DNA of 64,000 nucleotides, taken from a virus. Of the stretch, positions 3,006 through 29,093 are shown in pieces. A program made the position numbers and the translations under genes. The DNA is taken from positions 30,807 through 94,806 of IMG/VR virus record IMGVR_UViG_3300031963_000048. The stretch is one strand, 5' to 3'. Within the stretch, counting starts at the first letter, position 1; each line of letters starts with the position of its first letter. The notes beneath the pieces are model-generated. The model did not search any database and was not told the origin of the DNA. It worked only from the letters and a program-made list of their open reading frames with translations.

Positions 3006-3370
3006 TGAAGAAAAAACTGAACTGGTTTGAGTATTACTTCGGACATTGTTTCCAGACTGGTTGGAGAGAGATCTGGAACAACTTTAAGATGTGGAGAGAT
3101 CTCATCAGTGGAAACTATGCTGATTATGCTCTGCTGAAAAACGACGATCCATATGAAGAATGTTATCAGTGGTTCTGGTGCAGCATTAATATGGATGAAA
3201 CATATCCCAAAGAGTTTCTAGAATATCTGATGGAGATGTGTGATAGGATTGATCGTGGTGAAGAAAAGGTCTATCCACTTGATGAAGACTTTATGAATAG
3301 ACTTAAAGACCTTACTGGCGATGAGGACACTTTGGAAACTGGCACAGAGGACGTTGAAGACGCCTCCTGA
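3005..3370 (+). CDS. Hypothetical protein (121 aa), Trp-rich
   Basis: Acidic protein with a Trp/Phe/Tyr-rich first half (NWFEYYFGHCFQTGWREIW). ATG at 3005 overlaps the upstream stop (TGATG); two codons further up a GTG is also open. Its last 45 bases contain the upstream promoter box of the next transcription unit (3325-3381), so coding and regulatory sequence overlap. Confidence 0.65.
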   Translation: MKKKLNWFEYYFGHCFQTGWREIWNNFKMWRDLISGNYADYALLKNDDPYEECYQWFWCSINMDETYPKEFLEYLMEMCDRIDRGEEKVYPLDEDFMNRLKDLTGDEDTLETGTEDVEDAS

Positions 3371-3381
3371 TGCCCTATAAT
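3325..3381 (+). promoter_or_regulatory. Phage box promoter 1 (TGGCAC box + TATAAT)
   Basis: Box with GGACAC then TTTGGAAACTGGCACAGAGG; TGGCAC starts at 3340 and TATAAT lies at 3376-3381 (36 nt apart). The box is inside the 3' coding end of the 3005 gene. The ATG follows 27 nt after the -10 start, with no Shine-Dalgarno. Confidence 0.7.
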
Positions 3382-3402
3382 ACCATTATACGAAACGCCC
3401 CT

Positions 3403-3666
3403 ATGACTCTCAAAGAGAAGAAGGCACTACTCAAACGACTTGAGCAGGCAGGCACCACTTGTATGGATTGTGGTCAAACTTATGGTGTTTATTCAGTCGG
3501 TTGTTCATCTGTCTGGAATGGTAAATGTGGTGTCTGTGGTGAAGAAAAACGGGTGACTGAATCCCGTGATTTTGCTTACTTTATTACTGGTATTCGCAAA
3601 CTGAAACTGGAGATCCAAAATGAGAAGAGTAACCGTAAGACCCAAAAGCAGCAAGGCGAAGAATAG
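3403..3666 (+). CDS. Zinc-ribbon-like small protein (87 aa)
   Basis: Two Cys pairs, CMDC and CGVC about 25 residues apart, look like a structural zinc ribbon; the rest is basic and helical (ALLKRLEQ, IRKLKLEI). The frame is open further upstream through the -10 box, but the start is placed at 3403 because the TATAAT at 3376 would otherwise lie in the coding part. May bind nucleic acid or a host protein; no direct evidence. Confidence 0.65.
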   Translation: MTLKEKKALLKRLEQAGTTCMDCGQTYGVYSVGCSSVWNGKCGVCGEEKRVTESRDFAYFITGIRKLKLEIQNEKSNRKTQKQQGEE

Positions 3667-3832
3667 ATTAGCAAATATCATGGGAAACAATCCTGTCTGT
3701 ATTGTAGAGCAGGACACTGGTGGTGAGTTATTCTTGGCATCAGAAAACCGTAAATACTTTTTTTGGGTTAGTACAAGAACTGGAACTAATCGTTTCGGTG
3801 ACAAATCTGATGCACACTGGGAGGTGCTCTAA
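3620..3832 (+). CDS. Basic N-terminal small protein (70 aa), cyanophage family
   Basis: Begins MRRVTVRPKSSKAKNRLAN, a strongly basic start that I associate with a recurring cyanophage small protein, then a beta-rich half (CIVEQDTGGELFLASENRKY). It overlaps the upstream gene by 47 nt in another frame; a shorter start at 3680 (MGNNP) would avoid most of this, but the basic N-terminus looks genuine. Unknown function. Confidence 0.7.
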   Translation: MRRVTVRPKSSKAKNRLANIMGNNPVCIVEQDTGGELFLASENRKYFFWVSTRTGTNRFGDKSDAHWEVL

Positions 3833-4008
3833 TGAATTACCTTTGTATTGTTGATGGACTCATAGAGTACGCTAGCACTTCTGAAAGTAGTTTTGCTCAC
3901 TATCAGTTAGTGTATGCCGAAGAGCACAAAGATGCTGATGTTCAGTATCTGACTCTCACTGATGAAGAGTATGATGAAATGTTCCCTTATGAAGAGGAAG
4001 AAGAATGA
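3832..4008 (+). CDS. Acidic small protein (58 aa)
   Basis: 58 aa starting MNYLCIVDGLIEYASTSE and ending in a run of Glu residues. Coupled to both neighbours: TAATG upstream, ATGA downstream. The acidic tail suggests a protein-binding rather than DNA-binding role, but function is unknown. Confidence 0.65.
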   Translation: MNYLCIVDGLIEYASTSESSFAHYQLVYAEEHKDADVQYLTLTDEEYDEMFPYEEEEE

Positions 4009-4259
4009 GATTTCGTAACATAGAGTTTCGTTGGAGTAAAGTCAACAACAAGTATGAACTCGTCAAGTGGTATACTCACGACTCTGGTGATAGTTGCTAT
4101 GTCGTTGCTTTCTTCAATAAAAGCACAGAAGGCTATGATATGAGAACCATCGGTACTAGGTTCTTTGAGGATAAAGATGCTTGGGTTGTAGGTAAATATG
4201 GTTTGGAGTTTCTAAATGCTATCTCTGCTATTCAAAAAGAGGAAGATGAACTGAAATAG
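4005..4259 (+). CDS. Hypothetical protein (84 aa)
   Basis: 84-aa mixed alpha/beta protein (RFRNIEFRWSKVNNKYELVK, then SCYVVAFFNKS). Last gene of the 3403 operon; its TAG stop overlaps the next phage promoter box (4259). No recognisable motif. Confidence 0.65.
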   Translation: MRFRNIEFRWSKVNNKYELVKWYTHDSGDSCYVVAFFNKSTEGYDMRTIGTRFFEDKDAWVVGKYGLEFLNAISAIQKEEDELK

Positions 4260-4315
4260 GACACTTGAAGAACTGGCACAGGAGCATCCCACAGGTGCTC
4301 CTTTTGCCTTATAAT
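4259..4315 (+). promoter_or_regulatory. Phage box promoter 2
   Basis: GGACAC followed by TTGAAGAACTGGCACAGG; TGGCAC starts at 4274, TATAAT at 4310-4315 (36 nt). A hairpin (4281-4301) lies between them. ATG follows at 4337, 27 nt from the -10 start. Confidence 0.75.
4281..4305 (+). terminator. Hairpin terminator inside promoter module 2
   Basis: GGAGCA (4281-4286) pairs with TGCTCC (4296-4301) around a 9-nt loop, followed by TTTT. Would end transcripts of the 3403 operon just before the next start site. Confidence 0.6.
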
Positions 4316-4336
4316 GACTTCATAAGAAACAAACCG

Positions 4337-4510
4337 ATGAACTACGAAACTGACATCATCATTCATCAGTATTCTTCTGATGGAGATTTTTATTACAAAC
4401 TCAAAGTCACAGATGTAATGAATATGGATTACTACTATGAGGGTAGTGCTCTAACTCTTGATAATGTTATGGAATGTATCCAACTTCACCTCAAACAACA
4501 CCAGAACTGA
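4337..4510 (+). CDS. Hypothetical protein (57 aa)
   Basis: 57-aa Tyr/Asp-rich protein (MNYETDIIIHQYSSDGDFYY). The frame is open upstream to 4265 across the promoter, but 4337 is the first ATG after the -10 box. Unknown function; first gene of a new operon. Confidence 0.65.
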   Translation: MNYETDIIIHQYSSDGDFYYKLKVTDVMNMDYYYEGSALTLDNVMECIQLHLKQHQN

Positions 4511-4511
4511 A

Positions 4512-4742
4512 ATGAAACGCAACAACTTTGATTTTATGGATGCTTGGACTGTTTTGATTGTTGGTACTGTTGTTTTGGTTCTTCTTGCTGCTCCCATCAC
4601 AGGAGTTATGAAAGTCATTACAACTCAACAAGCACTCAACGAACAGTGTGGGACTAACTACAACTTCTTCCAAGTTGCTACTGCGGGTGATAATCTTTCC
4701 CGTCTTTGCCAAATCAAAAATCAAACTGTGACGATTAAATGA
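4512..4742 (+). CDS. Small single-pass membrane protein (76 aa)
   Basis: Membrane segment at about residues 11-30 (WTVLIVGTVVLVLLAAPITG) after a short polar N-terminus, then a soluble tail with two Cys (CGTNYNF, LCQIKN). Starts directly after the upstream stop (TGAAATG). Function unknown. Confidence 0.65.
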   Translation: MKRNNFDFMDAWTVLIVGTVVLVLLAAPITGVMKVITTQQALNEQCGTNYNFFQVATAGDNLSRLCQIKNQTVTIK

Positions 4743-5133: not shown

Positions 5134-5134
5134 A

Positions 5135-5458: not shown

Positions 5459-5775
5459 CTGAACGCATTCAAGTCAAAGAAACTCAACAATACTGGGGAG
5501 ATTTTGACGGAACACTTGAAAGTATTATTGCCGCACTTCAAGCAGAGTTAGATGCTGGTTGGGTGGGACTTGAATATGAATGCGAACCATATGAGGATGG
5601 TGCCTATTATCTTTACAAGCATCGTGAAGAAACCGACAAAGAATACAATAAGAGAATGAAACAACTGGAGAAAGAAAAGGCAGAGAAAGAAAAAGCAAAG
5701 GAACGAAAACTTCAACAACTGAAGAAAGACCTTGCTTCTTTGAGTGATGCCGACAAAAAACTCTTGGGTATGTAG
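5455..5775 (+). CDS. Coiled-coil small protein (106 aa)
   Basis: N-terminal globular half (TQQYWGDFDGTLESIIAALQ) followed by a long charged helix from about residue 60 (KRMKQLEKEKAEKEKAKERK) that should form a coiled coil, so the protein probably oligomerises. Last gene before promoter module 3, which begins on its final stop base. Confidence 0.65.
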   Translation: MTERIQVKETQQYWGDFDGTLESIIAALQAELDAGWVGLEYECEPYEDGAYYLYKHREETDKEYNKRMKQLEKEKAEKEKAKERKLQQLKKDLASLSDADKKLLGM

Positions 5776-5831
5776 GACACTTGAAGAACTGGCACAGGGG
5801 ATGCTCTGGATGCCTCTGGATGCCTTATAAT
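5775..5831 (+). promoter_or_regulatory. Phage box promoter 3
   Basis: GGACAC then TTGAAGAACTGGCACAGG; TGGCAC starts at 5790, TATAAT at 5826-5831 (36 nt). The segment between holds ATGCTCTGG/ATGCCTCTGG direct repeats. ATG at 5857 follows a CACACAGACACC leader without Shine-Dalgarno. Confidence 0.75.
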
Positions 5832-5856: not shown

Positions 5857-6084
5857 ATGACAATTGAAATCACTAATCAAGTTCGTATTCAGGAACACAC
5901 TGATTTTTGGTACACCGTAGAAGACACTCACCTTGATGTAGGATTTGAAGGTTGTACCATTTCTTATTGGGAACTTCCTTCTGGTGTGAATACAAGTGAA
6001 AAACGAGTAAATCATATTTGTATGGAAAAAGAAGAAGCACTCGCAGTAGCAGACGCAATCTACAAACTCTTCAAAAAAGACTGA
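5857..6084 (+). CDS. Hypothetical protein (75 aa)
   Basis: 75 aa; beta-rich N-terminal part (TIEITNQVRIQEHTDFWYTV) and a C-terminal helix (KEEALAVADAIYKLFKK). Resembles small phage proteins with a beta-sheet plus helix layout; no family recognised. TGATG overlap with the next gene. Confidence 0.65.
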   Translation: MTIEITNQVRIQEHTDFWYTVEDTHLDVGFEGCTISYWELPSGVNTSEKRVNHICMEKEEALAVADAIYKLFKKD

Positions 6085-6296: not shown

Positions 6297-6454
6297 CTGA
6301 CGAACAAATCCTACAACTTGTAAAAGAACATTTTGAAGAAGATTGGGATGAGAATGATGGTTGGGAGTATTCTGGAAACTTTGATGCCTTTGTGAAGTTT
6401 GCCCAAGAAATCTATGATAAGGCTTATGATGATGGTTGCTTCGACAATTATTGA
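6293..6454 (+). CDS. MTDEQIL-family small protein (53 aa)
   Basis: Starts MTDEQILQLVKEHFEED and ends with a helix containing KFAQEIYDKAYDDG. The same plan (MT-D/N-EQIL-x-LA ... KFA-x-x-I-x-x-x-Y) is seen at 9773, 9972 and 11219, so this is one member of a local paralogous family. Unknown function; coupled to the upstream gene by ATGA. Confidence 0.7.
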   Translation: MTDEQILQLVKEHFEEDWDENDGWEYSGNFDAFVKFAQEIYDKAYDDGCFDNY

Positions 6455-6511
6455 GGACACTTGAAGAACTGGCACAGGGGATGCTCTGGGTGCCTCTGGA
6501 TGCCCTATAAT
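6455..6511 (+). promoter_or_regulatory. Phage box promoter 4
   Basis: Near-identical to promoter 3: GGACAC, TTGAAGAACTGGCACAGG, TGGCAC at 6470 and TATAAT at 6506-6511 (36 nt), followed by the same CACACAGACACC leader to ATG 6537. Confidence 0.75.
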
Positions 6512-6536: not shown

Positions 6537-6722
6537 ATGACTAATCTTCTTCAAAACTATACTCTTGAAGATTTCGTCAAATGTCGTAATCAAAAAGAAT
6601 GGATTTGTGATGAATGTAGAAATTGTGGTGATAGAGATTGTTGCTCTGGAAATCACATAATGTTTAGAGTTCCTAAAACTGATGATTGTCTCTGTTCTAT
6701 TTGTATGAGTAAATTGAAATGA
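6537..6722 (+). CDS. Cys-rich zinc-binding-like protein (61 aa)
   Basis: Eight cysteines in 61 aa: C-x2-C and C-x2-C type pairs in CDECRNCGDRDCC and a second cluster CLCSICMSK at the end, plus a His between. Very likely binds one or two zinc ions. Possible role as a small DNA- or protein-binding factor; no family recognised. Confidence 0.65.
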   Translation: MTNLLQNYTLEDFVKCRNQKEWICDECRNCGDRDCCSGNHIMFRVPKTDDCLCSICMSKLK

Positions 6723-9418: not shown

Positions 9419-9707
9419 TCCTCTCCTACAAAAATATGAAGAACTCTACGGAAAGAAAGAAGAACCAAAACCAGATTATTATAAGGGTGAAAAGTCATAC
9501 GCAGAAGAACTGGAAGAACTTCGGGATACTTCTACTATTCCAATCACAAAACTCACCTGTTATGATAATGAGAGTTTGAATGATGGTTTCTTACAAATTG
9601 CAGAAAAGTTAAAAAACAAAGAGGCACAAGTATATTCTATGAATATGAATATAGACCATTCAAGTCGCACAAGAAGAATTACCTTTGAGGTGTGGGACAA
9701 TTTTTGA
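9411..9707 (+). CDS. Hypothetical protein (98 aa)
   Basis: 98 aa, acidic N-terminal half (NPLLQKYEELYGKKEEPKPD) and a beta-rich C-terminal half (YSMNMNIDHSSRTRRITFEV). Its 3' end overlaps promoter module 5. Last gene of the 6537 operon. Confidence 0.6.
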   Translation: MTNPLLQKYEELYGKKEEPKPDYYKGEKSYAEELEELRDTSTIPITKLTCYDNESLNDGFLQIAEKLKNKEAQVYSMNMNIDHSSRTRRITFEVWDNF

Positions 9708-9751
9708 ACTGGCACAAGGACTCCCCAAAGTCCCTGAAAATGCCTTATAAT
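9695..9751 (+). promoter_or_regulatory. Phage box promoter 5
   Basis: GGACAA then TTTTTGAACTGGCACAAGG; TGGCAC at 9710, TATAAT at 9746-9751 (36 nt). GGACT/AGTCC (9718-9733) forms a small hairpin between. ATG at 9773, 27 nt from the -10. Confidence 0.72.
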
Positions 9752-9772: not shown

Positions 9773-9979
9773 ATGAAAGACGAAGAACTTCTAAAACTTG
9801 CTTCTCATTTTCTCGCAATTCATCCTATTGATGAAAACAAACCAGAAAACCTTTTGAAGTTTGCCCTTGCAATTCGTAAAGAAACTATTGAGGAAGTTCT
9901 TACTTCACTGAAAGATGTTCCTAATCCAGAAGCAAACAAAACAGCAATCAACCGTATTATGAGTATGAATTATGACTAA
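9773..9979 (+). CDS. MTDEQIL-family protein (68 aa)
   Basis: Starts MKDEELLKLASHFLAIHP and continues with ENLLKFALAIRKETIEEVL, matching the layout of the 6293, 9972 and 11219 products. The frame is open upstream through the promoter; the ATG at 9773 after the -10 is taken as start. Function unknown. Confidence 0.65.
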   Translation: MKDEELLKLASHFLAIHPIDENKPENLLKFALAIRKETIEEVLTSLKDVPNPEANKTAINRIMSMNYD

Positions 9980-10902: not shown

Positions 10903-11147
10903 AACATCCTGCTAATGAATATCTTGACCCCCAAGAAGATGCTCAACTTTCATTTAACAAGTGGTTTTATGAAGATTTTTATGGACGATTTACATATCGG
11001 TATGAATACTTTATGGACGACATAAAAATTGAGGATGAGAACCAAAGGAAACAAATTCTTATCAGTTGGGTGGAAAGTGCATTTTTGTGTGGATACGAAT
11101 ATGCTCTTTATAAGCAACTGGAAAAAGAGGTAGAGAAGGACACTTGA
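10899..11147 (+). CDS. Hypothetical protein (82 aa)
   Basis: 82 aa, acidic and aromatic; a C-terminal helix (ESAFLCGYEYALYKQLEKEV). Start at 10899 by ATGA coupling, though the frame is open from 10866. Last gene before promoter module 6. Confidence 0.6.
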   Translation: MKHPANEYLDPQEDAQLSFNKWFYEDFYGRFTYRYEYFMDDIKIEDENQRKQILISWVESAFLCGYEYALYKQLEKEVEKDT

Positions 11148-11195
11148 AGAACTGGCACAGGGGCACTTGAAAACGGGTGCCCTTTGTCGTATAAT
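11138..11195 (+). promoter_or_regulatory. Phage box promoter 6 with hairpin and TTGAAA -35
   Basis: GGACAC then TTGAAGAACTGGCACAGG; TGGCAC at 11153, TATAAT at 11190-11195 (37 nt). GGGCAC (11161-11166)/GTGCCC (11177-11182) form a hairpin whose loop carries TTGAAA (11167-11172), a -35 with perfect 17-nt spacing. Confidence 0.75.
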
Positions 11196-11218: not shown

Positions 11219-11410
11219 ATGACTGACGAACAAATCCTTAACCTCGCTGAAAAGCATCTTGAAGTATTGGTTGATGATTATGAGGGAATAGAGTATTTTT
11301 CTTCAACCAAAAAACAAATGGTTGAGTTTGCCCTAAAAATCCACGAAATGGGTTATAATATGGGAAGAATGGAAGGACTTGAAGTAGGACTGACGAATAA
11401 TGAAGATTGA
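11219..11410 (+). CDS. MTDEQIL-family protein (63 aa)
   Basis: MTDEQILNLAEKHLEVLVDD then MVEFALKIHEMGYNMG, closely parallel to the 9972 product; also shares its first six residues with 6293. Function unknown. First gene after promoter 6; overlaps the next gene by 11 nt. Confidence 0.65.
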   Translation: MTDEQILNLAEKHLEVLVDDYEGIEYFSSTKKQMVEFALKIHEMGYNMGRMEGLEVGLTNNED

Positions 11411-12456: not shown

Positions 12457-13215
12457 ATGACTTCACAAAGTCCAAGAATATACTTATACAAAATTACTTT
12501 TGAAGAAGTTCCATATTATTATTATGGGGTTCATAAGGAAAAATATTACAACGAAGAATATTGGGGAACTCCTATAACTCATAAATGGTGTTGGAAATTT
12601 TATACTCCAAAGAAACAAATACTTGAAGTTTTTGATTATACTGACGAAAGTTGGTTAGAAGCACAAGAAGTTGAAAAAAGAATAATTAGACCTTTTCTTA
12701 ACGATAATTGGTGTTTGAATGAAAATTGTAATGGTATTTTATCACTAAAAATACTCAAAGCAGCAGGAAAAAAAGCAGCAGAAACTCATAAAAATAATAA
12801 TACAGGACTTTACAATGTTTCTTTGGAAAAAAGAATTGAAAATGGTAAAAAGGCATATGAACTTGGAGTGGGAGTTCATTCAAGAACAAAAGAAAAAATG
12901 AGTGAAGATGGTAGAAAAGGTGCTAAAACACAACAGGAACTTTGTATAGGAATACACGGAAAAACAAAAGAACAAATTCGTGAAGATGGTAGAAAAGGTG
13001 GAAATAAAGTAAAAGAACTCGGATTAGGAATACACGGATTTACTAAACAACAGAGAATTGAAAATGCTAGAAATGGTGGAAAAGTTAGTGGAAAAAATGT
13101 AGGAAATCAAAAATGGATGTGTATTGAAACTGGATTTATTTCTAATCCAGGAGGACTTACGAGATATCAAAAATCAAAAAATATAGACACTTCTAAAAGA
13201 GTAAGAGTATCATAA
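12457..13215 (+). CDS. GIY-YIG homing-type endonuclease (252 aa)
   Basis: N-terminal GIY-YIG nuclease domain: YLYKIT (about residues 9-14) and YYYGVHK (about 20-26) are the two signature strands, and the acidic residues of EAQEVEKR near 68-75 would supply the catalytic Glu. From about residue 120 come repeated helix-turn units (SRTKEKMSEDGRKG, GKTKEQIREDGRKG, GFTKQQRIENARNG) like the NUMOD3-type DNA-binding repeats of Seg-like free-standing homing endonucleases. It cuts DNA to spread itself between related phages. It is preceded by a terminator and its own late promoter and is visibly more A-rich than its neighbours, as expected for a mobile cassette. No intron or split host gene is seen around it. 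Confidence 0.82.
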   Translation: MTSQSPRIYLYKITFEEVPYYYYGVHKEKYYNEEYWGTPITHKWCWKFYTPKKQILEVFDYTDESWLEAQEVEKRIIRPFLNDNWCLNENCNGILSLKILKAAGKKAAETHKNNNTGLYNVSLEKRIENGKKAYELGVGVHSRTKEKMSEDGRKGAKTQQELCIGIHGKTKEQIREDGRKGGNKVKELGLGIHGFTKQQRIENARNGGKVSGKNVGNQKWMCIETGFISNPGGLTRYQKSKNIDTSKRVRVS

Positions 13216-13273
13216 GGACACTTTGCAAACTGGAACAGGGGCACTTGAAATCTGGTGCCCTTTGTTGTATAAT
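13216..13273 (+). promoter_or_regulatory. Phage box promoter 7
   Basis: GGACAC then TTTGCAAACTGGAACAGG (box variant TGGAAC at 13231), TATAAT at 13268-13273 (37 nt). Hairpin GGGCAC/GTGCCC at 13239-13260 carries TTGAAA (13245-13250), 17 nt from the -10. Begins right after the endonuclease stop. Confidence 0.72.
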
Positions 13274-13295: not shown

Positions 13296-14015
13296 ATGAC
13301 TGATAATCTTCCAGTTCCTGATGATTTGCCTCATTTAAATCTATCTCAAAGTGAATTGGATGAATTGAGAAAATCAAAGAAAGAATTAACGGAATACGGT
13401 AAACAGAAGTTGAGAGAACTTATGAACAAGGACTTAATCTTCTATACAAACGGTAAGGAAACATCCCGTATGCCTGCTCCAACTCTTGAAACTCTTACTA
13501 CTGGAACCAAAGCACCTGAAATTAAACTTGAAATCAAAATGACTGAACCAATTGAAGCAAAAGTATCCGAAGAAGATTACCAGAAAGTTCTAGAACTTAT
13601 GAACAATCAAGAACCATACCCGGATGAAATGTTTGAGGAGGCAGAGCGTCGTGAATCAGAACGCAAGGCACTTGATGCTCTTGATAAACATCTCTATGAA
13701 GAGAACGTCAATACTATGTTGAAACTTGCTGAAATTGAAAAAGAAGAATGGGAACGCAAAGAACGAAGTGATACTGTCCTGCGACGGTATAATGATTACT
13801 ACAATCTGGAATGTTCTGGACTTCCTCACGGCACACCAATCACTCCAGAGCAACAACAAATGATTACTCTACAATCTATGATTGATGCTATTCGTTGTGA
13901 ATATCTCAATCGTGAGTATAATGAGATTGCGATTAGTGATATTGAGAACTTGATTGAGGCACTTTATCAACAATCAATTACATTTCTTGAACGAGTGAGG
14001 AAGAGTAATGAGTAG
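13296..14015 (+). CDS. Acidic helical protein (239 aa)
   Basis: Highly charged, mostly helical protein: N-terminal LSQSELDELRKSKKELTEYG, central AEIEKEEWERKERSDTVLRR, C-terminal AISDIENLIEALYQQSITFL. Probable coiled-coil segments suggest oligomerisation or a scaffolding role. I do not recognise the family. Directly downstream of promoter 7 and coupled (8-nt overlap) to the next gene. Confidence 0.65.
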   Translation: MTDNLPVPDDLPHLNLSQSELDELRKSKKELTEYGKQKLRELMNKDLIFYTNGKETSRMPAPTLETLTTGTKAPEIKLEIKMTEPIEAKVSEEDYQKVLELMNNQEPYPDEMFEEAERRESERKALDALDKHLYEENVNTMLKLAEIEKEEWERKERSDTVLRRYNDYYNLECSGLPHGTPITPEQQQMITLQSMIDAIRCEYLNREYNEIAISDIENLIEALYQQSITFLERVRKSNE

Positions 14016-16348: not shown

Positions 16349-16499
16349 TAGTCTTAAGATAACACAAAATGAAGATGGGTCTTATACAATGGGATGGGAC
16401 AAGGAAGACCCAAATTGGAAGTGGTTGAATGGGTTGACTTCCAAGGAGATTCAGGTTATTATGGAACAAGCAATCAAAGACTACCTCAATGACCTCTGA
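16338..16499 (+). CDS. Hypothetical protein (53 aa)
   Basis: 53 aa (ITQNEDGSYTMGWDKEDPNW) with a C-terminal helix (SKEIQVIMEQAIKDYLN); the 'NEDGSYTMGWDKEDP' strand pair is a familiar cyanophage hypothetical motif. Overlaps both neighbours by 11 nt. Confidence 0.6.
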   Translation: MNADSLKITQNEDGSYTMGWDKEDPNWKWLNGLTSKEIQVIMEQAIKDYLNDL

Positions 16500-17076
16500 T
16501 TACAAAAAGTATTCGCTTGAAAAACTTCAAGAGTGGGTTCACGATGCGATGAATAGTGATGCTTCACCGCACGAAATCTATTCTGCGATTCGTGAAGCAG
16601 TTCGTGAAGAGTATTATTACCATAAAGACTGTATTAGTCGTGCTTCTGGACTTCTGGAACTTCTGAGTGGTCATCGTCCCGTAGAAGATAGTTCAATTCT
16701 TCAATGTGATAAAGACGATAAATCTCCAGAGTGTCAAAAATCCTGGAATGATTTCTGGGAAGAGAATTATTACCCAGAAGAATATCAAAAATATACTACA
16801 AATAATATCAATCTTCAAAAAGAAGTTGAAGACATTCGTAAAGAGGGTGGATACGATTGGACCCCAGAAGTAAAAAAAGATAAGGTAAAGAAGTGGGTTC
16901 TTCCAGTTGAAGAAGTCCGAGATGAAGACACTGATGAAGATATTTACTGCGTAACATTTCCCGATGATCTTCTAGAAGCAGCAAATCTGAAAGAAGGTGA
17001 TATTGTTGAGTGGGTGAATCAGGGTGATGATTCTTATCTTTTGCAAAAACACACTGAAACGTTTAGATTTAAATGA
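16489..17076 (+). CDS. Two-part protein (195 aa), C-terminal AbrB-like half
   Basis: Residues 1-65 form a helical part (SLEKLQEWVHDAMNSDASPH ... EAVREEYYYHKDCISRASGL). The C-terminal 60 residues, IYCVTFPDDLLEAANLKEGD followed by IVEWVNQGDD, have the swapped-hairpin pattern of SpoVT/AbrB-type DNA-binding domains ('v-x-iP-x-x-l-x-x-x-x-l-x-x-Gd-x-v-x-w'). Could be a small transcription regulator or a fusion of two small phage proteins. AbrB assignment is inference from pattern only. Confidence 0.65.
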   Translation: MTSDYKKYSLEKLQEWVHDAMNSDASPHEIYSAIREAVREEYYYHKDCISRASGLLELLSGHRPVEDSSILQCDKDDKSPECQKSWNDFWEENYYPEEYQKYTTNNINLQKEVEDIRKEGGYDWTPEVKKDKVKKWVLPVEEVRDEDTDEDIYCVTFPDDLLEAANLKEGDIVEWVNQGDDSYLLQKHTETFRFK

Positions 17077-17312
17077 TGTATGGTCTTGAATTTATCGCTC
17101 CATTTGTTGCTGGACTTTGTTTTGATAATTTTATGAAAATGCAGGGAGAACTCTGCAACTTTAGAGATTCGCAACCACAAGCAATGAAATACTATCAACC
17201 AAGTCCAGAAGATGCCTGCTATCGTGATGGTATCTTCTATCCACGATGTAAAGACCTTGAAAATCCAGAGGTATTACGTTATCATAATTTATTGAAAGGA
17301 GAAATTAAGTAA
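17073..17312 (+). CDS. Small protein with hydrophobic N-terminus (79 aa)
   Basis: First 20 residues (MYGLEFIAPFVAGLCFDNFM) are hydrophobic and could be a membrane anchor; the rest has four Cys. Second Met (17076) is an equally good start. TAATG overlap with the next gene. Confidence 0.6.
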   Translation: MMYGLEFIAPFVAGLCFDNFMKMQGELCNFRDSQPQAMKYYQPSPEDACYRDGIFYPRCKDLENPEVLRYHNLLKGEIK

Positions 17313-17542
17313 TGGCACTATCACAATCAGTAGAAGAATCTTTGAAGGAAGCGGAACAATCTCTGCGTAATGCTCTTTCATATGCTGCGCGTCAAGAACG
17401 TCCAATGGTTTGTAGTGTGATTGCAGATCTTATTCATCGTATTGAAACACTTCAAACAACTGATTCTCTTCTTGATAAATTAGAAAACCGTAAACCAGGT
17501 GACTCTGGTTTCTTTGGAACTATCTTTGGAAAAGATGACTGA
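17312..17542 (+). CDS. Conserved helical cyanophage-type protein (76 aa)
   Basis: 76 aa: MALSQSVEESLKEAEQSLRN then ALSYAARQERPMVCSVIADL, a two-helix pattern I recognise from cyanomyovirus hypothetical proteins. Function unknown. Confidence 0.75.
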   Translation: MALSQSVEESLKEAEQSLRNALSYAARQERPMVCSVIADLIHRIETLQTTDSLLDKLENRKPGDSGFFGTIFGKDD

Positions 17543-18150: not shown

Positions 18151-18384
18151 ATGTCATCACGTTACAAAACTATGGATAACATCGATCAACATATTCAAAA
18201 GGACGAGGACCTTTTGAGTGACCCAACTATTTCTCCACAATCAAGGAGACATACTGAAGAAGAACTAGAAGCACTTAAAACATATAAAGAACACCATCCT
18301 GAAGACTCTCACGATCCTACACCACTGGAACTTTATTGTGATGCCAATCCTGATGCATTAGAGTGTAGAGTGTATGATGACTGA
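18151..18384 (+). CDS. cp12: CP12-like Calvin-cycle inhibitor (77 aa)
   Basis: The C-terminus, LELYCDANPDALECRVYDD, is the CP12 signature: two cysteines spaced C-x8-C and the terminal (C)R-x-YDD that inserts into GAPDH; in hosts CP12 links GAPDH and phosphoribulokinase into an inactive complex and shuts the Calvin cycle. The N-terminal 50 residues (IDQHIQKDEDLLSDPTISPQ) are the helical charged part typical of cyanophage versions and lack the N-terminal cysteine pair of host CP12. The phage form is thought to divert NADPH toward nucleotide synthesis. ATG at 18151 is taken after the TAA-rich gap; ends just before promoter 8. Confidence 0.85.
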   Translation: MSSRYKTMDNIDQHIQKDEDLLSDPTISPQSRRHTEEELEALKTYKEHHPEDSHDPTPLELYCDANPDALECRVYDD

Positions 18385-18442
18385 GGACAGTTAGAAAACT
18401 GGCACAAGGGGTCTCCTGGTTCGCTGGGAGACCCCTTATAAT
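18385..18442 (+). promoter_or_regulatory. Phage box promoter 8
   Basis: GGACAG then TTAGAAAACTGGCACAAGG; TGGCAC at 18400, TATAAT at 18437-18442 (37 nt). The interval is filled by a perfect 11-bp hairpin. ATG at 18468 after leader CAGACACC. Confidence 0.75.
18406..18437 (+). terminator. Strong hairpin in promoter module 8
   Basis: AAGGGGTCTCC (18406-18416) and GGAGACCCCTT (18427-18437) are perfect complements with a 10-nt loop. It would terminate transcription from the CP12 unit; its last T is the first base of the -10 TATAAT of the next unit. Confidence 0.65.
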
Positions 18443-18467: not shown

Positions 18468-18848
18468 ATGGCAACTCGTGGAAGAATCGGAATCGAACTT
18501 TCTGATGGAAGCATCTTGAGCAGTTATCATCATTGGGACTCGTATCCCGAATGGTTGGGTCGCATCCTGAAGACGCACTACAATAGCAAAGAACTTGCTG
18601 CCGACCTGATTGACGGTGGTGATATGAGCACGTGCTGGGCAGAAGATAAGAAACCCGAGTATTATAGTGCCCGTGGTGAAGATTGCCCCCCTCGCCTTGA
18701 TGCTAATCTGGGTGAGTTTCTTCAAAACGGTGAAGAGTATGGTTATGTTTATACTCAAGAAGAAGGTTGGTTGTGCTATGACACTTGCGACTGGCATGAA
18801 ACCTACCTTGAAGGTGTAGAGATTCCTTCTGGTGCTCTTGCTGTGTGA
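18468..18848 (+). CDS. Conserved phage protein (126 aa), MATR-GRIGIEL family
   Basis: Starts MATRGRIGIELSDGSILSSY then HHWDSYPEWLGRILKTHY, a pattern found in phage proteins of many groups including cyanophages; acidic Trp/Tyr-rich C-terminus (GWLCYDTCDWHETYLEGVEI). Function is not known to me. Only gene of its unit: a promoter precedes it and a terminator follows. Confidence 0.8.
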   Translation: MATRGRIGIELSDGSILSSYHHWDSYPEWLGRILKTHYNSKELAADLIDGGDMSTCWAEDKKPEYYSARGEDCPPRLDANLGEFLQNGEEYGYVYTQEEGWLCYDTCDWHETYLEGVEIPSGALAV

Positions 18849-18969: not shown

Positions 18970-19095
18970 ATGGACCTGTCTGAACTGATTGATGAACTGC
19001 GGGAGATCGCTCTGTATGAGTCTGATCCACAAGATTGGATGGGTTATTTGGAGAATGATGACTATTGGGTGCCAGATCCTGAACTGGCATACTGA
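18970..19095 (+). CDS. Very small acidic protein (41 aa)
   Basis: 41 aa (MDLSELIDELREIALYESDP), acidic with a Trp/Tyr-rich end (WMGYLENDDYWVPDPE). Own -10 box upstream. The 3' end carries a degenerate form of the TGGCAC box (TGGCAT at 19085). Confidence 0.55.
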   Translation: MDLSELIDELREIALYESDPQDWMGYLENDDYWVPDPELAY

Positions 19096-19126
19096 CGCTC
19101 TGAGAGGCGCCTAGGTGCCTTATAAT
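19076..19126 (+). promoter_or_regulatory. Phage box promoter 9 (degenerate box)
   Basis: TGAACTGGCATACTG in the 3' end of the 18970 gene; TGGCAT at 19085 and TATAAT at 19121-19126 keep the 36-nt spacing of the other modules. GGCGCC palindrome lies between. ATG at 19148, 27 nt from the -10. Confidence 0.6.
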
Positions 19127-19147: not shown

Positions 19148-19579
19148 ATGACCACCACCTTCGCTGACTACGCCGCTGCTGCTGAGGCACGGAAAGACAT
19201 CGCTGCTGCTGTTCTGGGGCACACCTATGCCCTCTGTGAGGCACTGCGTCAGAACTACATTGATTACTCTATTCGGAGTCATCAACTTCGTACATCTGAT
19301 GTAGAGTATCACGATGCTTGCATTGAGAATCTGAAGCAGGGCACTTGTGACTATGACTTCTACCCTGAGACTGGTCGTAAGTATCACAAAATCATTATGA
19401 ATGCGAATGGTTCGCGTTCTGTCCACGCTTTTGTGGACAAGAAGACTGGTCAAGTCTACAAGTCTGCATCCTGGAAAGCACCTGCCAAGGGTGTTCGCTA
19501 CGATCTTCGCATCATTGAGCAGCGTGAATGGTTGCTTCAACATGCTGACTGGGCAGGTTCCTACCTTTACGCCCGCTGA
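19148..19579 (+). CDS. Conserved cyanophage protein (143 aa)
   Basis: Starts MTTTFADYAAAAEARKDIAA then VLGHTYALCEALRQNYIDYS; a basic beta-rich C-terminal part (RKYHKIIMNANGSRSVHAFV, YDLRIIEQREWLLQHADW). Recognised as a recurrent cyanomyovirus protein without known function. Start placed at 19148, downstream of the -10 box; higher GC than the 4-17 kb genes. Confidence 0.75.
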   Translation: MTTTFADYAAAAEARKDIAAAVLGHTYALCEALRQNYIDYSIRSHQLRTSDVEYHDACIENLKQGTCDYDFYPETGRKYHKIIMNANGSRSVHAFVDKKTGQVYKSASWKAPAKGVRYDLRIIEQREWLLQHADWAGSYLYAR

Positions 19580-19976: not shown

Positions 19977-20450
19977 ATGTCTTACATCACGTATTCTGGA
20001 TACGGTTATTCTAAACTCCTCTGTGAGGACGTTACCACTTGGTTTCTGAATAAGTTTCTGCCCCGTCATAAGATTGAGGTGGAGATTCTTCATCGTGGTT
20101 TGAAACGTGAGGAAGTTTATGGATACTGTGACTATGTGGGAGAATCCTATCGTCCCCGTGAGTTTCTGATTGAACTTCAGACCCATATGGAGGAGGAGTT
20201 GTATATAAAAACTCTTTTACACGAACTGGTCCACCTGCGACAATGGGTAGTCGGTTCGCTGCGGTCCAAGCGTGGAAAAATGTATTATGGTAAAGAACCC
20301 GTTGAAAATTACGACTATTGGCATCAACCACACGAAATTGAGGCACGGGAGCAAGAAGAAACCCTATATCTTGAGTACCTATTTGAGAAGAATGGGTGGA
20401 CTAATTCGCAAGTGGCACAGTTATTCCCCAACCGCCTACTGGTGGCATAA
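19977..20450 (+). CDS. SprT-like zinc metalloprotease (157 aa)
   Basis: HELVH at about residues 82-86 is the HExxH zinc site, preceded by LYIKTLL and followed by HLRQW; HEIEAREQEE about 40 residues later can supply the third ligand, as in SprT/zincin-type proteins. The 157-aa single domain fits a small soluble phage protease of the type often annotated SprT-like. Start: ATG 19977 (MSYITYSGYGYSK); a TTG 21 nt upstream is open but unneeded. Target unknown; host DNA-protein crosslink repair proteins of the SprT family are the closest known analogues. Confidence 0.75.
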   Translation: MSYITYSGYGYSKLLCEDVTTWFLNKFLPRHKIEVEILHRGLKREEVYGYCDYVGESYRPREFLIELQTHMEEELYIKTLLHELVHLRQWVVGSLRSKRGKMYYGKEPVENYDYWHQPHEIEAREQEETLYLEYLFEKNGWTNSQVAQLFPNRLLVA

Positions 20451-20915: not shown

Positions 20916-21749
20916 ATGACTATGGAGACAAACCGAGTTTATAATGATAGCTGTGTTGATGGCATGAATGCCATGAATGCAGAATCTGTGGATTTGTGTG
21001 TAACCTCTCCTCCATATGATGATTTAAGAACGTATAACGATTCCTCCAAGTGGGATTTTAATGTCTTTAAAGATGTTGCACAAGCACTTGCCAGAGTATT
21101 GAAACCTGGTGGGGTTATCATGTGGAATGTTGGGGACGCAACAATTGATGGTGGCGAAACTGGAAGTAGTTTTCGCCAGGCACTTTACTTTATGGATGAG
21201 TGCGGATTGCGTCTGCATGATACCATGATTTACGAAAAGACAGGAATTGCTTTTGCTGCTGGTGAAAAGTCGCTGCGCTATTCGCAGGCATTTGAGTATT
21301 GTTTTATTCTGAGCAAAGGCAAACCCAAGACGGTGAATATTATCATGGACAAACCAAATGCCTGGGCAGGGCATAAGTCCTGGGGAAATGCACGTGCTCG
21401 GAAGAAGGATGGAAGTCTGGAGATTACAGACGAAAAGACAAAAGAAATCAAGGAGTTTGGTGCTCGTACGAATATCTGGAAAATCAAGAATAGTGGTGGA
21501 TTTGGACAATCCAATAAAAGAGCATATGAGCATCCTGCTACCATGCCAGAGCAACTTGCCTACGATCATATTATCACTTGGACCAATCCTGGTGACCTTG
21601 TTTTAGATCCATTTATGGGCAGTGGCACAACGGCAAGAATGGCAATCAAAGCAGACCGTAAGTATATTGGATTTGAGATTGACCAAACCTACTGGGAGTT
21701 GTGTCAGGACATTACACCACAAAGCACTGTCTTTGACGCCCTGAACTGA
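20916..21749 (+). CDS. DNA methyltransferase, beta-class amino-MTase (277 aa)
   Basis: Transfers a methyl group from S-adenosylmethionine to the exocyclic amine of adenine or cytosine. Catalytic motif IV TSPPY at about residues 30-34 comes before the AdoMet motif I DPFMGSGT at about 231-238 followed by YIGFEID: this order defines the beta class (N6-adenine or N4-cytosine). TSPPY rather than DPPY leans slightly to N4-cytosine but does not decide it. No HNH or restriction partner is adjacent; a PD-(D/E)xK-like protein is encoded 6.7 kb downstream. May protect phage DNA from host restriction. Start ATG 20916; second ATG 20922 possible. Confidence 0.9.
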   Translation: MTMETNRVYNDSCVDGMNAMNAESVDLCVTSPPYDDLRTYNDSSKWDFNVFKDVAQALARVLKPGGVIMWNVGDATIDGGETGSSFRQALYFMDECGLRLHDTMIYEKTGIAFAAGEKSLRYSQAFEYCFILSKGKPKTVNIIMDKPNAWAGHKSWGNARARKKDGSLEITDEKTKEIKEFGARTNIWKIKNSGGFGQSNKRAYEHPATMPEQLAYDHIITWTNPGDLVLDPFMGSGTTARMAIKADRKYIGFEIDQTYWELCQDITPQSTVFDALN

Positions 21750-21805
21750 CCAATTCAAAAACTGGCACAGGGGGCACTGCGCTGTCTCCTGTATTGCCCT
21801 ATAAT
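21748..21805 (+). promoter_or_regulatory. Phage box promoter 10
   Basis: Box CAATTCAAAAACTGGCACAG, TGGCAC at 21763, TATAAT at 21800-21805 (37 nt). GGGCA (21771-) and TGCCC just before the -10 form a weak inverted repeat. ATG at 21839 is 39 nt from the -10. Confidence 0.72.
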
Positions 21806-22912: not shown

Positions 22913-23112
22913 CCGAAGCAAATGTTAATCTAAATGTTCATGAAGTTGGTGTAATTCTATCCGCACTTCAGTTATTGAATCTCCGTGATGAGAATCAAAT
23001 CGCAAGAGAATATGGAAGTGTACCAGCACTGTACAACAAACTTTACACGGTCTTTGAGCAGATGGACAGTTCGCAAACTGGTCTACGCAACGACGTGGTG
23101 CCGTCCTTCTGA
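22909..23112 (+). CDS. Helical protein (67 aa)
   Basis: 67 aa (MTEANVNLNVHEVGVILSAL) with helix QLLNLRDENQIAREYG. Its 3' end contains promoter box 11 (23064-23084), so the last codons are shared with regulatory sequence. Confidence 0.65.
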   Translation: MTEANVNLNVHEVGVILSALQLLNLRDENQIAREYGSVPALYNKLYTVFEQMDSSQTGLRNDVVPSF

Positions 23113-23120
23113 CCTATAAT
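23064..23120 (+). promoter_or_regulatory. Phage box promoter 11
   Basis: GGACAG then TTCGCAAACTGGTCTACG within the 22909 coding end; TGG at 23079 and TATAAT at 23115-23120, 36 nt apart. The CAC part of the box is lost. ATG at 23145. Confidence 0.6.
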
Positions 23121-23144: not shown

Positions 23145-23408
23145 ATGACCACCTTCCCCACTCTCCAGTCTGCAGACGGCACGATGCTGGTCGGATACTA
23201 CCCTGTGAAGACCCCCTACGGTGACATCAGCCAAGAATGGTGTCTGCAGGTTCTGTCTTGGAAAGGTGTGGATCAAATCTCCAAGAAGTTTCTGAATCGT
23301 GTTGAGAAGACTCTTGCGATTCGTGAGCGTCTGGCACTGGGTTATACCGAAACTGGTGACAACTCCGATCTGCCTCAACTGGGTAATCCTTTCTATGGTG
23401 CTTGCTGA
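23145..23408 (+). CDS. Hypothetical protein (87 aa)
   Basis: 87 aa: beta-rich N-terminus (TFPTLQSADGTMLVGYYPVK), central helix (ISKKFLNRVEKTLAIRERLA), and a Gly/Pro-rich end. GC-rich compared with neighbours. TGATG overlap with the following gene. Confidence 0.65.
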   Translation: MTTFPTLQSADGTMLVGYYPVKTPYGDISQEWCLQVLSWKGVDQISKKFLNRVEKTLAIRERLALGYTETGDNSDLPQLGNPFYGAC

Positions 23409-26124: not shown

Positions 26125-26126
26125 GA

Positions 26127-26184
26127 GGACAGTTGAGAATCTGGCACAGTAGGGGTTGATATCTGCCACGTGATGGTTTACATT
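26127..26184 (+). promoter_or_regulatory. Phage box promoter 12
   Basis: GGACAG then TTGAGAATCTGGCACAGT; TGGCAC at 26142 and TACATT at 26179-26184 (37 nt). ATG at 26210, 31 nt from the -10. Confidence 0.68.
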
Positions 26185-26344: not shown

Positions 26345-26352
26345 GAAACCTT

Positions 26353-26411
26353 GTGCCAGTTGAGAGAGTGGCACACAGGGGGTTGTGGTGCGCCAGGATC
26401 CCTGATACATT
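26353..26411 (+). promoter_or_regulatory. Phage box promoter 13
   Basis: GTGCCA (26353-26358) and TGGCAC (26369-26374) make the box itself a dyad here (AGTTGAGAGAG between). TACATT at 26406-26411, 37 nt from TGGCAC. CAGGG/CCCTG inverted repeat in the interval. Confidence 0.7.
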
Positions 26412-26710: not shown

Positions 26711-26711
26711 A

Positions 26712-26927
26712 ATGACCCTTACTACCCAACAACTTGACCAACTGATTGAAAACTACGCTGAGCGTATTGTTGATGAGATGGACACCAAATGTTTGATGCA
26801 ATTTGTGTACGATACGCTTGTTGAGAGTTTGGCAGGTAAATCTGAAGAAGATGTGCTCGGTGAGATTGCCTATGTTTATGATGAGGATGTTGTCGAAGAA
26901 TTGATTGAGAGTGTGACAGTTCAGTAA
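26712..26927 (+). CDS. Acidic helical protein (71 aa)
   Basis: MTLTTQQLDQLIENYAERIV then DTLVESLAGKSEEDVLGEIA, all-helical, acidic. The frame is open 15 nt upstream inside the previous gene. Its last codons overlap promoter box 14. Confidence 0.65.
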   Translation: MTLTTQQLDQLIENYAERIVDEMDTKCLMQFVYDTLVESLAGKSEEDVLGEIAYVYDEDVVEELIESVTVQ

Positions 26928-26971
26928 GTGGCACAAGGGGGGTTGCAAGTCCCCCCGATCTGGTCCATACT
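26913..26971 (+). promoter_or_regulatory. Phage box promoter 14
   Basis: TGACAGTTCAGTAAGTGGCA at 26913-26932; TGGCAC at 26929, -10 candidate CATACT at 26966-26971 (37 nt). GGGGGG/CCCCCC hairpin between. Box lies in the 3' end of the 26712 gene. Confidence 0.65.
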
Positions 26972-26997
26972 ACATTTGTTGAGAGGGAAACCCCCAA

Positions 26998-27345
26998 ATG
27001 CGTAAGATTGAATCCCAGATGAATGCTGCCATTCGTGACTCCCGCAATTGGAAGTCTGGCAACACTGAGGTTACCTTTGACGCTGAAACTAACGAGTCGA
27101 AAGTGTTTCTTTTCGGCAATCACATTGCTACCATTGGTGACAACTTCGTGCAAATCTTTGACGGTGGATGGCAGTCTGTGACCACCAAATCCCGCCTGAA
27201 TGCGATTCTTCAAGAGCATGGAATCAAGGGTGAATGTGTGTTTCAAAAGAACTTTAAGTGGTTCGTCCACAAGTTCATCGGGCAGGCAGGAACTTCTCCT
27301 GTCTACAATGAATACGATTTCAGCAATGGTTTCATGTTTGCATAA
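26998..27345 (+). CDS. Conserved phage protein (115 aa)
   Basis: MRKIESQMNAAIRDSRNWKS then VTFDAETNESKVFLFGNHIA and FVQIFDGGWQSVTTKSRLNA. This is a widespread phage hypothetical family; a beta-sheet with a Trp-containing turn, function unknown. Single-gene unit between promoter 14 and a strong terminator. Confidence 0.8.
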   Translation: MRKIESQMNAAIRDSRNWKSGNTEVTFDAETNESKVFLFGNHIATIGDNFVQIFDGGWQSVTTKSRLNAILQEHGIKGECVFQKNFKWFVHKFIGQAGTSPVYNEYDFSNGFMFA

Positions 27346-27351
27346 AGAATC

Positions 27352-27377
27352 GGGGGGCAATATGCTCCCCTTTTTTT
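27352..27377 (+). terminator. Strong intrinsic terminator
   Basis: GGGGGGC (27352-27358) pairs with GCTCCCC (27364-27370), one G-U, loop AATAT, followed by seven T. Ends the 26998 unit. Confidence 0.85.
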
Positions 27378-27398
27378 ATACTCAAGTCGGCTGCTCGT

Positions 27399-27457
27399 GT
27401 GCCAGTTGAGAGAGTGGCACACACCCCCTTGCAATCGGCACCAATCCCTGCAATACT
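27399..27457 (+). promoter_or_regulatory. Phage box promoter 15, possibly leaderless
   Basis: GTGCCA/TGGCAC dyad (27399-27404, 27415-27420); the -10 candidate AATACT at 27452-27457 keeps the 37-nt spacing. The ATG at 27464 is only 12 nt from the -10 start, so transcription would begin at or beside the start codon. Confidence 0.6.
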
Positions 27458-27463
27458 AAAAGC

Positions 27464-28360
27464 ATGAAAAACACCCACCTTGAGCACCCCGAAGATTCTA
27501 TTCTCACGGGTGACCTTTCTGCCCTGGATTGGTTCGTGAATCCTGGCAACTTGAGCGTCAAGATTGATGGCGCCCCTGCGATTGTCTGGGGTGTGAATCC
27601 TGCCAATGGTGAGTTCTTTGTAGGAACCAAAGCAGTCTTTAACAAGAAAAAGATTCGTATTGCTCACAATCATGAAGAAATTGATTCATTCTATCAGGGT
27701 GAAGTTGCGCGTATTCTTCACGCTTGCTTTGATTATCTGCCTCGCTTCGATACTATCTACCAAGGTGATTTTATTGGGTTTGGTGGTAGTGATGAGTATA
27801 CTCCCAACACGATCACTTACAAGTTTCCTGAGGTAGTTTCTCAGCAAATTATCATTGCACCGCACACTTGCTATTATGCTGAGAGCGATCTTCGTGACGC
27901 TCAAGCATTCCCCGATCGTAGCATCTGGAATGATACTGAGACGGTGAAGTTCGTGCAACCTCAAGCATACATTCAGCACGGTCAAACGTCCTTCGCTGAT
28001 GTAGAGGAAGTCTGCAAGTTTGCCCGTCAAATGGCAACTGTTGTGACCTTTGCAACTGATAAAGAAGCGGCAAAGATTAAGCAGCAACTGAATGCTTGCA
28101 TCCGTGAGAATCGTCCTGTTGTGAATAGTGAATTCGACTGCGATCCTAACCTGCTGGGGTTGTGGGCACTGGTGAAATCTATCAAGGCAGATTGTCTCTA
28201 TCTGTGCCGCAATGATGGTCCTGCCGCTTACATCGGGCAGGAGAGAATCGACTCCGAAGGTTACGTACTCACCAATGAGTTTGGTATGTTTAAGTTGGTG
28301 AATCGTGAGGCATTCTCCTATCATAATTTCAACAGCGGTCGCTTTCAGTGTGCCAGTTGA
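27464..28360 (+). CDS. Ligase-like nucleotidyltransferase (298 aa)
   Basis: Carries the motif set of the covalent nucleotidyltransferase superfamily (DNA/RNA ligases, capping enzymes): motif I SVKIDGAPAIVWG with the candidate adenylated Lys33, an IYQGDF segment near residues 98-103 in the position of motif III, motif IV EGYV near 265-268, and motif V FKLVNR near 276-281. The length suits a single NTase domain without an OB domain, so it may seal or tag RNA or DNA ends, or be a degenerate relative. Related KxDGAPA proteins occur in T4-like phages as unknowns. The stop codon lies inside promoter box 16. Activity is inference. Confidence 0.72.
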   Translation: MKNTHLEHPEDSILTGDLSALDWFVNPGNLSVKIDGAPAIVWGVNPANGEFFVGTKAVFNKKKIRIAHNHEEIDSFYQGEVARILHACFDYLPRFDTIYQGDFIGFGGSDEYTPNTITYKFPEVVSQQIIIAPHTCYYAESDLRDAQAFPDRSIWNDTETVKFVQPQAYIQHGQTSFADVEEVCKFARQMATVVTFATDKEAAKIKQQLNACIRENRPVVNSEFDCDPNLLGLWALVKSIKADCLYLCRNDGPAAYIGQERIDSEGYVLTNEFGMFKLVNREAFSYHNFNSGRFQCAS

Positions 28361-28407
28361 ATAGGTGGCACAACCCCACCAGGGTGCCCGCACCGATACC
28401 CTATACT
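28350..28407 (+). promoter_or_regulatory. Phage box promoter 16
   Basis: GTGCCAGTTGAATAGGTGGC at 28350-28369, overlapping the last codons and TGA of the upstream gene; TGGCAC at 28366, TATACT at 28402-28407 (36 nt). ATG at 28451 is unusually far (49 nt). Confidence 0.68.
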
Positions 28408-28450
28408 AAGGGCATCGGAGGGGAAACGACCCTCCACAGCATTCCCCCTG

Positions 28451-29038
28451 ATGACTCTGACCGCCACCCTTGAGAAACTCACCGCTTTTGTGGTGACTGA
28501 AACCAACCGCTACGTTAGTGAAGAGTTCCGCCTGTATGGTAAGACTCTGCAACAGATTAAAGATAGCGGCATGGAAACTGCAGACTTTACGAAAATCTTT
28601 CAATACATTGTAAATGAGGTGATTGAGGAAGGAATCCGTCGCCTTGGGATTGATGGTCGCCGTGAGGAAGTTGCCGGGTATGATTACATCATCGAAGGTC
28701 AACCTGTTGAGTTCAAATTGATGGGCGGCGAGTCTAAATCGTCCTTTGCCACTGGTAACAAAACCTCTCACTTTGGTGGCAAAAAGACTAACCTTGTGTG
28801 GTCGATTAAGTACACCTTCAGTGATAATCAAATCGACAACTTTGGTATGGTTTTGATTGATACCAATCTCACCAAATCTAACGTTTGGAAGTCTTCCTCT
28901 GGTCGCAAAGATTCCTTCTCTCAGTTGCAACTTTCTATCGGTGAAGATAACTGCATTCTGTCGCAAATGGGCATTGTGAAACCTGCTCAAAAGTGGTTGC
29001 AGTTCCTGCCCCTGCCCACTGCCGTCCTGCTGGGGTGA
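28451..29038 (+). CDS. PD-(D/E)xK nuclease-like protein (195 aa)
   Basis: Residues about 77-90, YDYIIEGQPVEFKL, give D78 and E87-x-K89, the metal-binding spacing of the PD-(D/E)xK nuclease fold; a helix with Glu residues (NEVIEEGIRRLGI) precedes it as in many restriction enzymes. The region after it (SKSSFATGNKTSHFGGKKTN) is rich in Gly/Ser/Lys and may contact DNA. About 200 aa is normal for a small type II-like nuclease or a host-DNA-degrading enzyme. No methyltransferase is adjacent. Family not identified; activity inferred from one motif. Confidence 0.6.
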   Translation: MTLTATLEKLTAFVVTETNRYVSEEFRLYGKTLQQIKDSGMETADFTKIFQYIVNEVIEEGIRRLGIDGRREEVAGYDYIIEGQPVEFKLMGGESKSSFATGNKTSHFGGKKTNLVWSIKYTFSDNQIDNFGMVLIDTNLTKSNVWKSSSGRKDSFSQLQLSIGEDNCILSQMGIVKPAQKWLQFLPLPTAVLLG

Positions 29039-29093
29039 CAATTCACCAGGTGGCACACCCTGCCCCCTGAGACCCCACCCGACCCCTTACACT
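29035..29093 (+). promoter_or_regulatory. Phage box promoter 17
   Basis: GTGACAATTCACCAGGTGGC at 29035-29054 with TGGCAC at 29051; TACACT at 29088-29093 (37 nt). It begins at the stop codon of the nuclease-like gene. ATG at 29118. Confidence 0.65.

Follow-up and report, generated by a model that had tools for sequence, protein, structure and literature searches.

The 64,000-nucleotide window analysed here comprises bases 30,807-94,806 of the 94,806-bp viral contig IMGVR_UViG_3300031963_000048, which belongs to a T4-like freshwater cyanophage with Synechococcus phage S-SRM01 as the nearest named relative found. Between about 3 and 29 kb, the window carries 17 copies of an imperfect 24-bp dyad, TGTG[A/C]CA[G/C]TT-N4-AA[C/G]TG[G/T]CACA, built on the half-site TGTG[A/C]CA[G/C]TT, and in each copy the gap from the dyad end to a -10 hexamer is exactly 29 or 30 nt. 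The contig holds one further site of the same kind, the 18th; situated 205 nt beyond the left edge of the window, it precedes a UvsW-like helicase gene. Dyads were scored by their matches at 16 defined positions, and the sites in the window are listed below by window position (TSS, transcription start site; ORF, open reading frame).

3323..3346 (+): dyad GAGGACACTTTGGAAACTGGCACA, 13/16; -10 TATAAT 3376-3381; predicted TSS 3388; ORF 3403-3666
4257..4280 (+): dyad; -10 TATAAT 4310-4315; predicted TSS ~4322; ORF 4337-4510; hairpin between dyad and -10, -12.7 kcal/mol
5773..5796 (+): dyad; -10 TATAAT 5826-5831; predicted TSS ~5838; ORF 5857-6084
6453..6476 (+): dyad; -10 TATAAT 6506-6511; predicted TSS ~6518; ORF 6537-6722
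9693..9716 (+): dyad, 15/16; -10 TATAAT 9746-9751; predicted TSS ~9758; ORF 9773-9979
11136..11159 (+): dyad; -10 TATAAT 11190-11195; predicted TSS ~11202; ORF 11219-11410; strong spacer hairpin, -15.5 kcal/mol
13214..13237 (+): dyad, TGGAAC variant; -10 TATAAT 13268-13273; predicted TSS ~13280; ORF 13296-14015
18383..18406 (+): dyad; -10 TATAAT 18437-18442; predicted TSS ~18449; ORF 18468-18848, of a family with a dyad promoter in 4 genomes; spacer hairpin, -23.4 kcal/mol
19068..19091 (+): dyad, TGGCAT variant; -10 TATAAT 19121-19126; predicted TSS ~19133; ORF 19148-19579 (DUF7717)
21746..21769 (+): weaker dyad, 12/16; -10 TATAAT 21800-21805; predicted TSS ~21812
23062..23085 (+): degenerate dyad, 10/16, TGGTCT; -10 TATAAT 23115-23120; predicted TSS ~23127; ORF 23145-23408
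26125..26148 (+): dyad; -10 TACATT 26179-26184; TTGATA -35 with 17-nt spacing
26352..26375 (+): near-perfect dyad TGTGCCAGTTGAGAGAGTGGCACA; -10 TACATT 26406-26411
26912..26935 (+): dyad, full score 16/16; -10 CATACT 26966-26971; ORF 26998-27345 (Kyano_Gp96)
27398..27421 (+): dyad; -10 AATACT 27452-27457; predicted leaderless ORF 27464-28360 (DUF6267)
28349..28372 (+): dyad; -10 TATACT 28402-28407; ORF 28451-29038
29034..29057 (+): dyad; -10 TACACT 29088-29093; ORF 29118-29294

All of these sites had been marked in a preliminary description of this DNA, at points inside the box, the 24-bp dyad beginning 1-8 nt before each mark. There the box was given as TGGCAC, usually following GGACA(C/G); both parts are real, but they are the two halves of one dyad, with TGGCAC as the right half, and not separate features. 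The proposed distance of 36 or 37 nt from TGGCAC, or its variant, to the -10 hexamer holds at 17 of 17 sites. The hexamer is exactly TGGCAC at 14 of them, TGGCAT at 19076, as already described, and TGGTCT at 23064, where only the TGG had been noted, which leaves TGGAAC at 13216 as a variant that had gone unmentioned.

Random sequence does not give comparable counts. The contig contains 15 dyads scoring at least 13/16, against 0.4 in order-2 Markov shuffles, and combines TGGCAC with a TATAAT-like hexamer 36 or 37 nt away 13 times, against 0.6 expected; in the cyanophage ACG-2014f, 27 dyads reach at least 15/16, and none does so in shuffles. The palindrome is almost perfect at the 26-29 kb sites (for example TGTGCCAGTTGAGAGAGTGGCACA), with TACATT, CATACT or TACACT at -10, whereas the sites at 3-23 kb combine a degenerate left half with TATAAT.

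Within the same region, a decayed copy of the cassette (GTGGACTAATTCGCAAGTGGCACA) lies at 20396-20419 with a -10-like CATAAT only 26 nt away, and intact versions with similar flanks occur in related contigs (e.g. L053, L067). An adenine DNA methyltransferase-like gene with a CcrM-like C-terminal stretch follows at 20916-21749. In the DUF6267 protein, a KIDGAP motif recalls nucleotidyltransferase ligases, and the ATG of the gene coincides with the predicted +1.

Geometry of the predicted promoters

In ten genomes, a free scan of the 0-49 nt after the dyad end for TATAAT-like hexamers gave a peak at 29 and 30 nt (75 of about 150 hexamers). A pooled set of 881 distinct promoter-like sites, drawn from named genomes and from viral contigs among the matches listed and gathered with a 28-31 nt window, has a gap of 29 or 30 nt in 757 cases, and its logo shows TATAAT followed by A (0.60) or G (0.30) at +1 and T (0.75) at +2. 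In the contig, 18 of 18 sites have a purine 7 nt past the -10 and a T right after it, a feature not used in picking them, and an ORF start codon lies 0-37 nt past the predicted +1. A TATAAT-like -10 with a purine at the predicted start 7 nt downstream assigns these sites, by their sequence features, to the sigma-70 type. A -35 hexamer at 16-18 nt is not characteristic of the class: TTG or TTA occurs at 17 nt in only 10-20% of sites. Some of the 26-29 kb sites do have a -35, and ACG-2014f has one in the form CTAGGC/TTGGCA.

Relative to the predicted start, the dyad occupies about -65 to -42, with its centre at -53.5 or -54.5. The suggestion in the preliminary description that TGGCAC, at about -48 to -43, is a promoter-linked regulator box is strengthened by a spacing conserved across many genera, by retention of the element at orthologs, by the purine-T at the predicted +1 and by the weak or absent -35.

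The space between dyad and -10 frequently holds a terminator-like hairpin, although not at every site: 77 of 150 CC-class sites have one of -6 kcal/mol or lower, against 30 in shuffles. One cassette may therefore end one transcription unit and start the next.

The two halves of the dyad do not covary as base pairs. Among the pooled sites, positions 5 and 20 form Watson-Crick pairs in 44%, with 46% expected if independent, and positions 8 and 17 in 28%, with 45% expected. The pairing below expectation at 8/17 reflects a preference for unlike halves (GG 265, CC 264, GC 183, CG 58); in most sites, one half or both are of the CAGTT type, a pattern whose significance is inflated by related sequences. 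This lack of covariation argues for a protein-binding dyad and not for an RNA hairpin.

Distribution among cyanophages and conservation at orthologous genes

A motif scan of this genome and of related cyanophages, proposed at the outset as a check, found the dyad again, at the same spacing, in T4-like cyanophages from both marine and fresh waters. Pattern scans of IMG/VR gave, among the matches listed, 214 viral loci with the dyad, and 200 of them have T4-like cyanophages as best protein matches. In named phages, we counted about 31 dyads in ACG-2014f, 18 in S-SRM01, 15 in S-SSM7, 13 in S-CRM01, 10 each in S-PM2 and P-SSM2, 8 in P-RSM4 and fewer in others, while reversed-pattern controls gave 0-1 matches; a pattern count in Ma-LMM01 found no dyads. 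About 30 of the ACG-2014f sites are clustered between 27 and 58 kb in a single region of small ORFs, an arrangement shared with this contig. In Syn9, dyad-linked sites lie, for example, at 48,558, 52,996, 127,492 and 148,742.

The element is also kept in front of the same genes. A dyad promoter precedes DUF6267 in at least 5 genomes, Kyano_Gp96 in 5, and a 700-aa peptidase-like family and the UvsW-like helicase each in at least four, and for all four families these genomes belong to different genera; the DUF7717 orthologs of S-SRM01, ACG-2014f and Bellamy likewise have it. In marine and freshwater cyanobacterial viruses, the same 24-base dyad lies at a fixed distance from a predicted start before many host-takeover genes, and it looks like the landing site of a switch protein.

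A putative dimeric activator

We consider it almost certain that the dyad element is real, widespread and promoter-linked. Because the box is a 24-bp dyad, a dimer is expected as its reader, and activation by this dimer, which is quite probable, is the best reading of the element. That the dimer is of phage origin seems fairly likely. We judge the explanation as a whole to be probable, namely that sigma-70-type promoters of the variable, early-type region form a class that depends on an activator and is read by a dimeric, probably phage-encoded regulator.

In the mechanism that we propose, a dimeric DNA-binding protein would sit on the 24-bp dyad, centred about 54 bp upstream of the start, with the gap of 29/30 nt to the -10 setting the helix face of the bound dimer. 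From there, it would bring the sigma-70-type RNA polymerase of the host to a -10 that has a poor -35 or none, and would jointly control numerous short transcription units in the variable, early-type region, late genes being served by other promoters. The freed -35 region could often house a terminator-like hairpin, so that a unit end and the next start would be packed into a cassette of about 65 bp.

Several points weigh against this explanation. The promoter and activator roles rest on sequence features, with predicted start sites and putative binding, and a repressor bound upstream would look similar. Dyad counts vary widely, S-SM2 and SynMITS9220M01 having almost none at high score; even these dyad-poor phages have degenerate dyads before the peptidase-like gene. 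Moreover, a systematic search by gene-family co-occurrence in named phages found no family that is both in every dyad-rich phage and missing from the dyad-poor ones, so that the phage protein expected to bind the box did not emerge cleanly from its distribution. Since the named phages were few and hand-picked, such co-occurrence tests are weak. Three candidate families, AbrB-like, 76-aa helical and 70-aa helix-turn-helix-like, were compared with the dyad in up to 25 phages, and each is absent from one or more dyad-rich phages. The genes in the window that came into consideration are the following.

16489..17076 (+): weak candidate regulator, 195 aa, whose C-terminal domain is AbrB/MazE-like (PF04014, E=0.0045, below cut-off)
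17312..17542 (+): weak candidate partner, belonging to a 76-aa helical family found in many dyad-bearing phages
30619..30837 (+): weak candidate regulator, a second AbrB-like small protein

An AbrB-like protein as sole regulator was tempting, with two copies in the contig and a half-site core, TGGCA, that fits the TGGNA of the AbrB pseudo-consensus TGGNA-N5-TGGNA (PMC8552724, PMC11497800). Many dyad phages encode AbrB-like proteins, but the halves of the dyad are inverted and 10 bp apart, and the genes are missing from the dyad-rich S-CRM01 and S-SSM7. For the protein at 30619-30837, the structure prediction was of low confidence (mean predicted local distance difference test score, pLDDT, 62) and was not used. 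The 76-aa helical family matched well in the first ten genomes but is missing from the dyad-rich S-CRM01 and P-RSM4, and a helix-turn-helix-like 70-aa core protein was rejected as it is missing from S-SSM7 and DSL-LC02. In gene order, the 76-aa family lies two ORFs on from the AbrB/MazE-like gene at 16489-17076, as in S-SRM01, and the two families are adjacent in S-PM2.

Alternative explanations

The preliminary description had left open whether a phage or a host regulator reads the box; the regulator-type box is supported, and a host protein with a host regulon is unlikely. A host transcription factor exploited by phages would fit the observations that no phage gene family tracks the dyad, that phages of both Prochlorococcus and Synechococcus carry it, and that a few dyads occur in filamentous cyanobacteria. 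However, cellular genomes are almost free of it (27 matches in 257 Gb), which favours a phage regulator. With at most one mismatch, it is present in 38 of 291 cyanobacterial genomes, all of which are 3.3 Mb or larger and so outside the size range of picocyanobacteria. The cyanobacterial dyads inspected have no -10 at the right distance and do not form a set of sites upstream of host genes, and one lies beside a recombinase gene. As to individual genomes, the metagenome-assembled genome G002, a filamentous member of the Oscillatoriales (loci L559, L562 and L563), has six dyads against about 0.06 expected, and those read lack a -10 at the usual distance. Two further cyanobacterial loci, L566 and L567, carry dyad-like repeats TGTGACACTTT-N4-ATTGGCACT, the copy in L567 adjoining a tyrosine recombinase-like gene; these are probably recombination sites and not promoters.

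Somewhat more doubtful is that the same promoters are controlled by a repressor, with the dyad as operator and a phage regulator shutting early genes off later. Palindromic sites are typical of repressors, and sites with a -35 and a good -10, as in ACG-2014f and at 26-29 kb, could run without an activator. Yet the -10 and the start both lie outside the dyad, whose place is immediately upstream of the -35 position; occlusion would not need the strict spacing seen over hundreds of sites, and at many of them the -35 is missing.

It is improbable that the conserved unit is a recombination cassette of terminator and promoter, kept for the swapping of gene modules in the manner of the promoter-stem-loop (PeSL) cassettes of T4-like phages. 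We know of no upstream 24-bp dyad in the PeSLs of Arbiol 2010 and Comeau 2014. The likeness, by a definition of PeSLs taken second-hand from the consulted part of PMC4503421, would lie in a compact stem-loop terminator joined to an early-type promoter in variable gene regions; that part of the article mentions only sparse potential stem-loops in S-PM2. The enrichment of hairpins between dyad and -10, the location between small variable ORFs and near-identical copies within ACG-2014f agree with such a cassette. Against it, dyad and spacing are conserved and the intervening sequence is not, a signature of protein contacts and not of homology, and the element stays at orthologous genes across genera.

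Far less likely is a role of the dyad as a hairpin, in RNA or as a cruciform, that serves termination, antitermination or processing. If perfect, a dyad would be able to form a 10-bp stem with a 4-nt loop, but the paired positions 5/20 and 8/17 do not covary and the dyad has no match in Rfam. A sigma-54 (-24/-12) promoter, suggested by TTGCA 8 nt after TGGCAC at 26929 and 27415, can practically be dismissed, as the GG-N10-GC that it requires is here 3 nt longer and limited to a few sites, TGGCAC lies at -48 and is followed by a TATAAT-like -10, and cyanobacteria, to our knowledge, lack sigma-54.

Comparison with known phage promoters

The MotA box of T4 is a 9-bp element centred at -30 and read together with AsiA. 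Like the T4 middle promoters (MotA/AsiA/sigma-70), the dyad sites combine a box peculiar to the phages with a sigma-70 -10 downstream of it, the box replacing the -35, at many delayed-early or replication units; unlike them, they show a 24-bp dyad centred about -54 and no 9-bp box near -30, which bears out the earlier statement that the architecture differs from the MotA type. T4 late promoters (gp55/gp33) have TATAAATA at -10, whereas the consensus of the dyad sites is TATAAT and then A/G, with the dyad upstream.

According to the parts of two articles that were consulted, cyanomyoviruses lack motA and asiA (PMC2984593; PMC5780444) and also alt and modA (PMC2984593). In T4, the products of these four genes steer the RNA polymerase of the host. 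The same portion of PMC2984593, a 2010 review, reports sigma-70-like early promoters for S-PM2 and Syn9 and calls early and middle transcription in T4-like cyanophages, and any difference between phages, still unclear (PMC2984593). Sigma-70-like promoters are also described for Ma-LMM01 (PMC5780444). These early promoters share host-type -10 hexamers upstream of early genes with the dyad sites, and their descriptions, as far as consulted, name no upstream dyad; the part of PMC5931967 at hand reports motifs upstream of psbA only.

Activator-type phage promoters as such are known already. This element, its position and its family-wide use were not found in the literature examined; this literature did not extend to the Syn9 transcriptome (Doron 2016) or the PeSL papers, where an earlier mention of the dyad is possible.

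Significance for cyanophage biology

T4-like cyanophages rank with the most abundant viruses in the sea and in fresh water. With a defined, portable 24-bp site of fixed geometry, the question of their early and middle control becomes testable, as the site provides both a bait for the regulator and predictions of start sites. Besides, the dyad marks which small genes of unknown function are switched together. The chances are even that it represents a regulon-wide switch common to T4-like cyanophages, in which their own dimeric, phage-encoded activator would take the place of AsiA, MotA and Alt of T4 and control most host-takeover genes.

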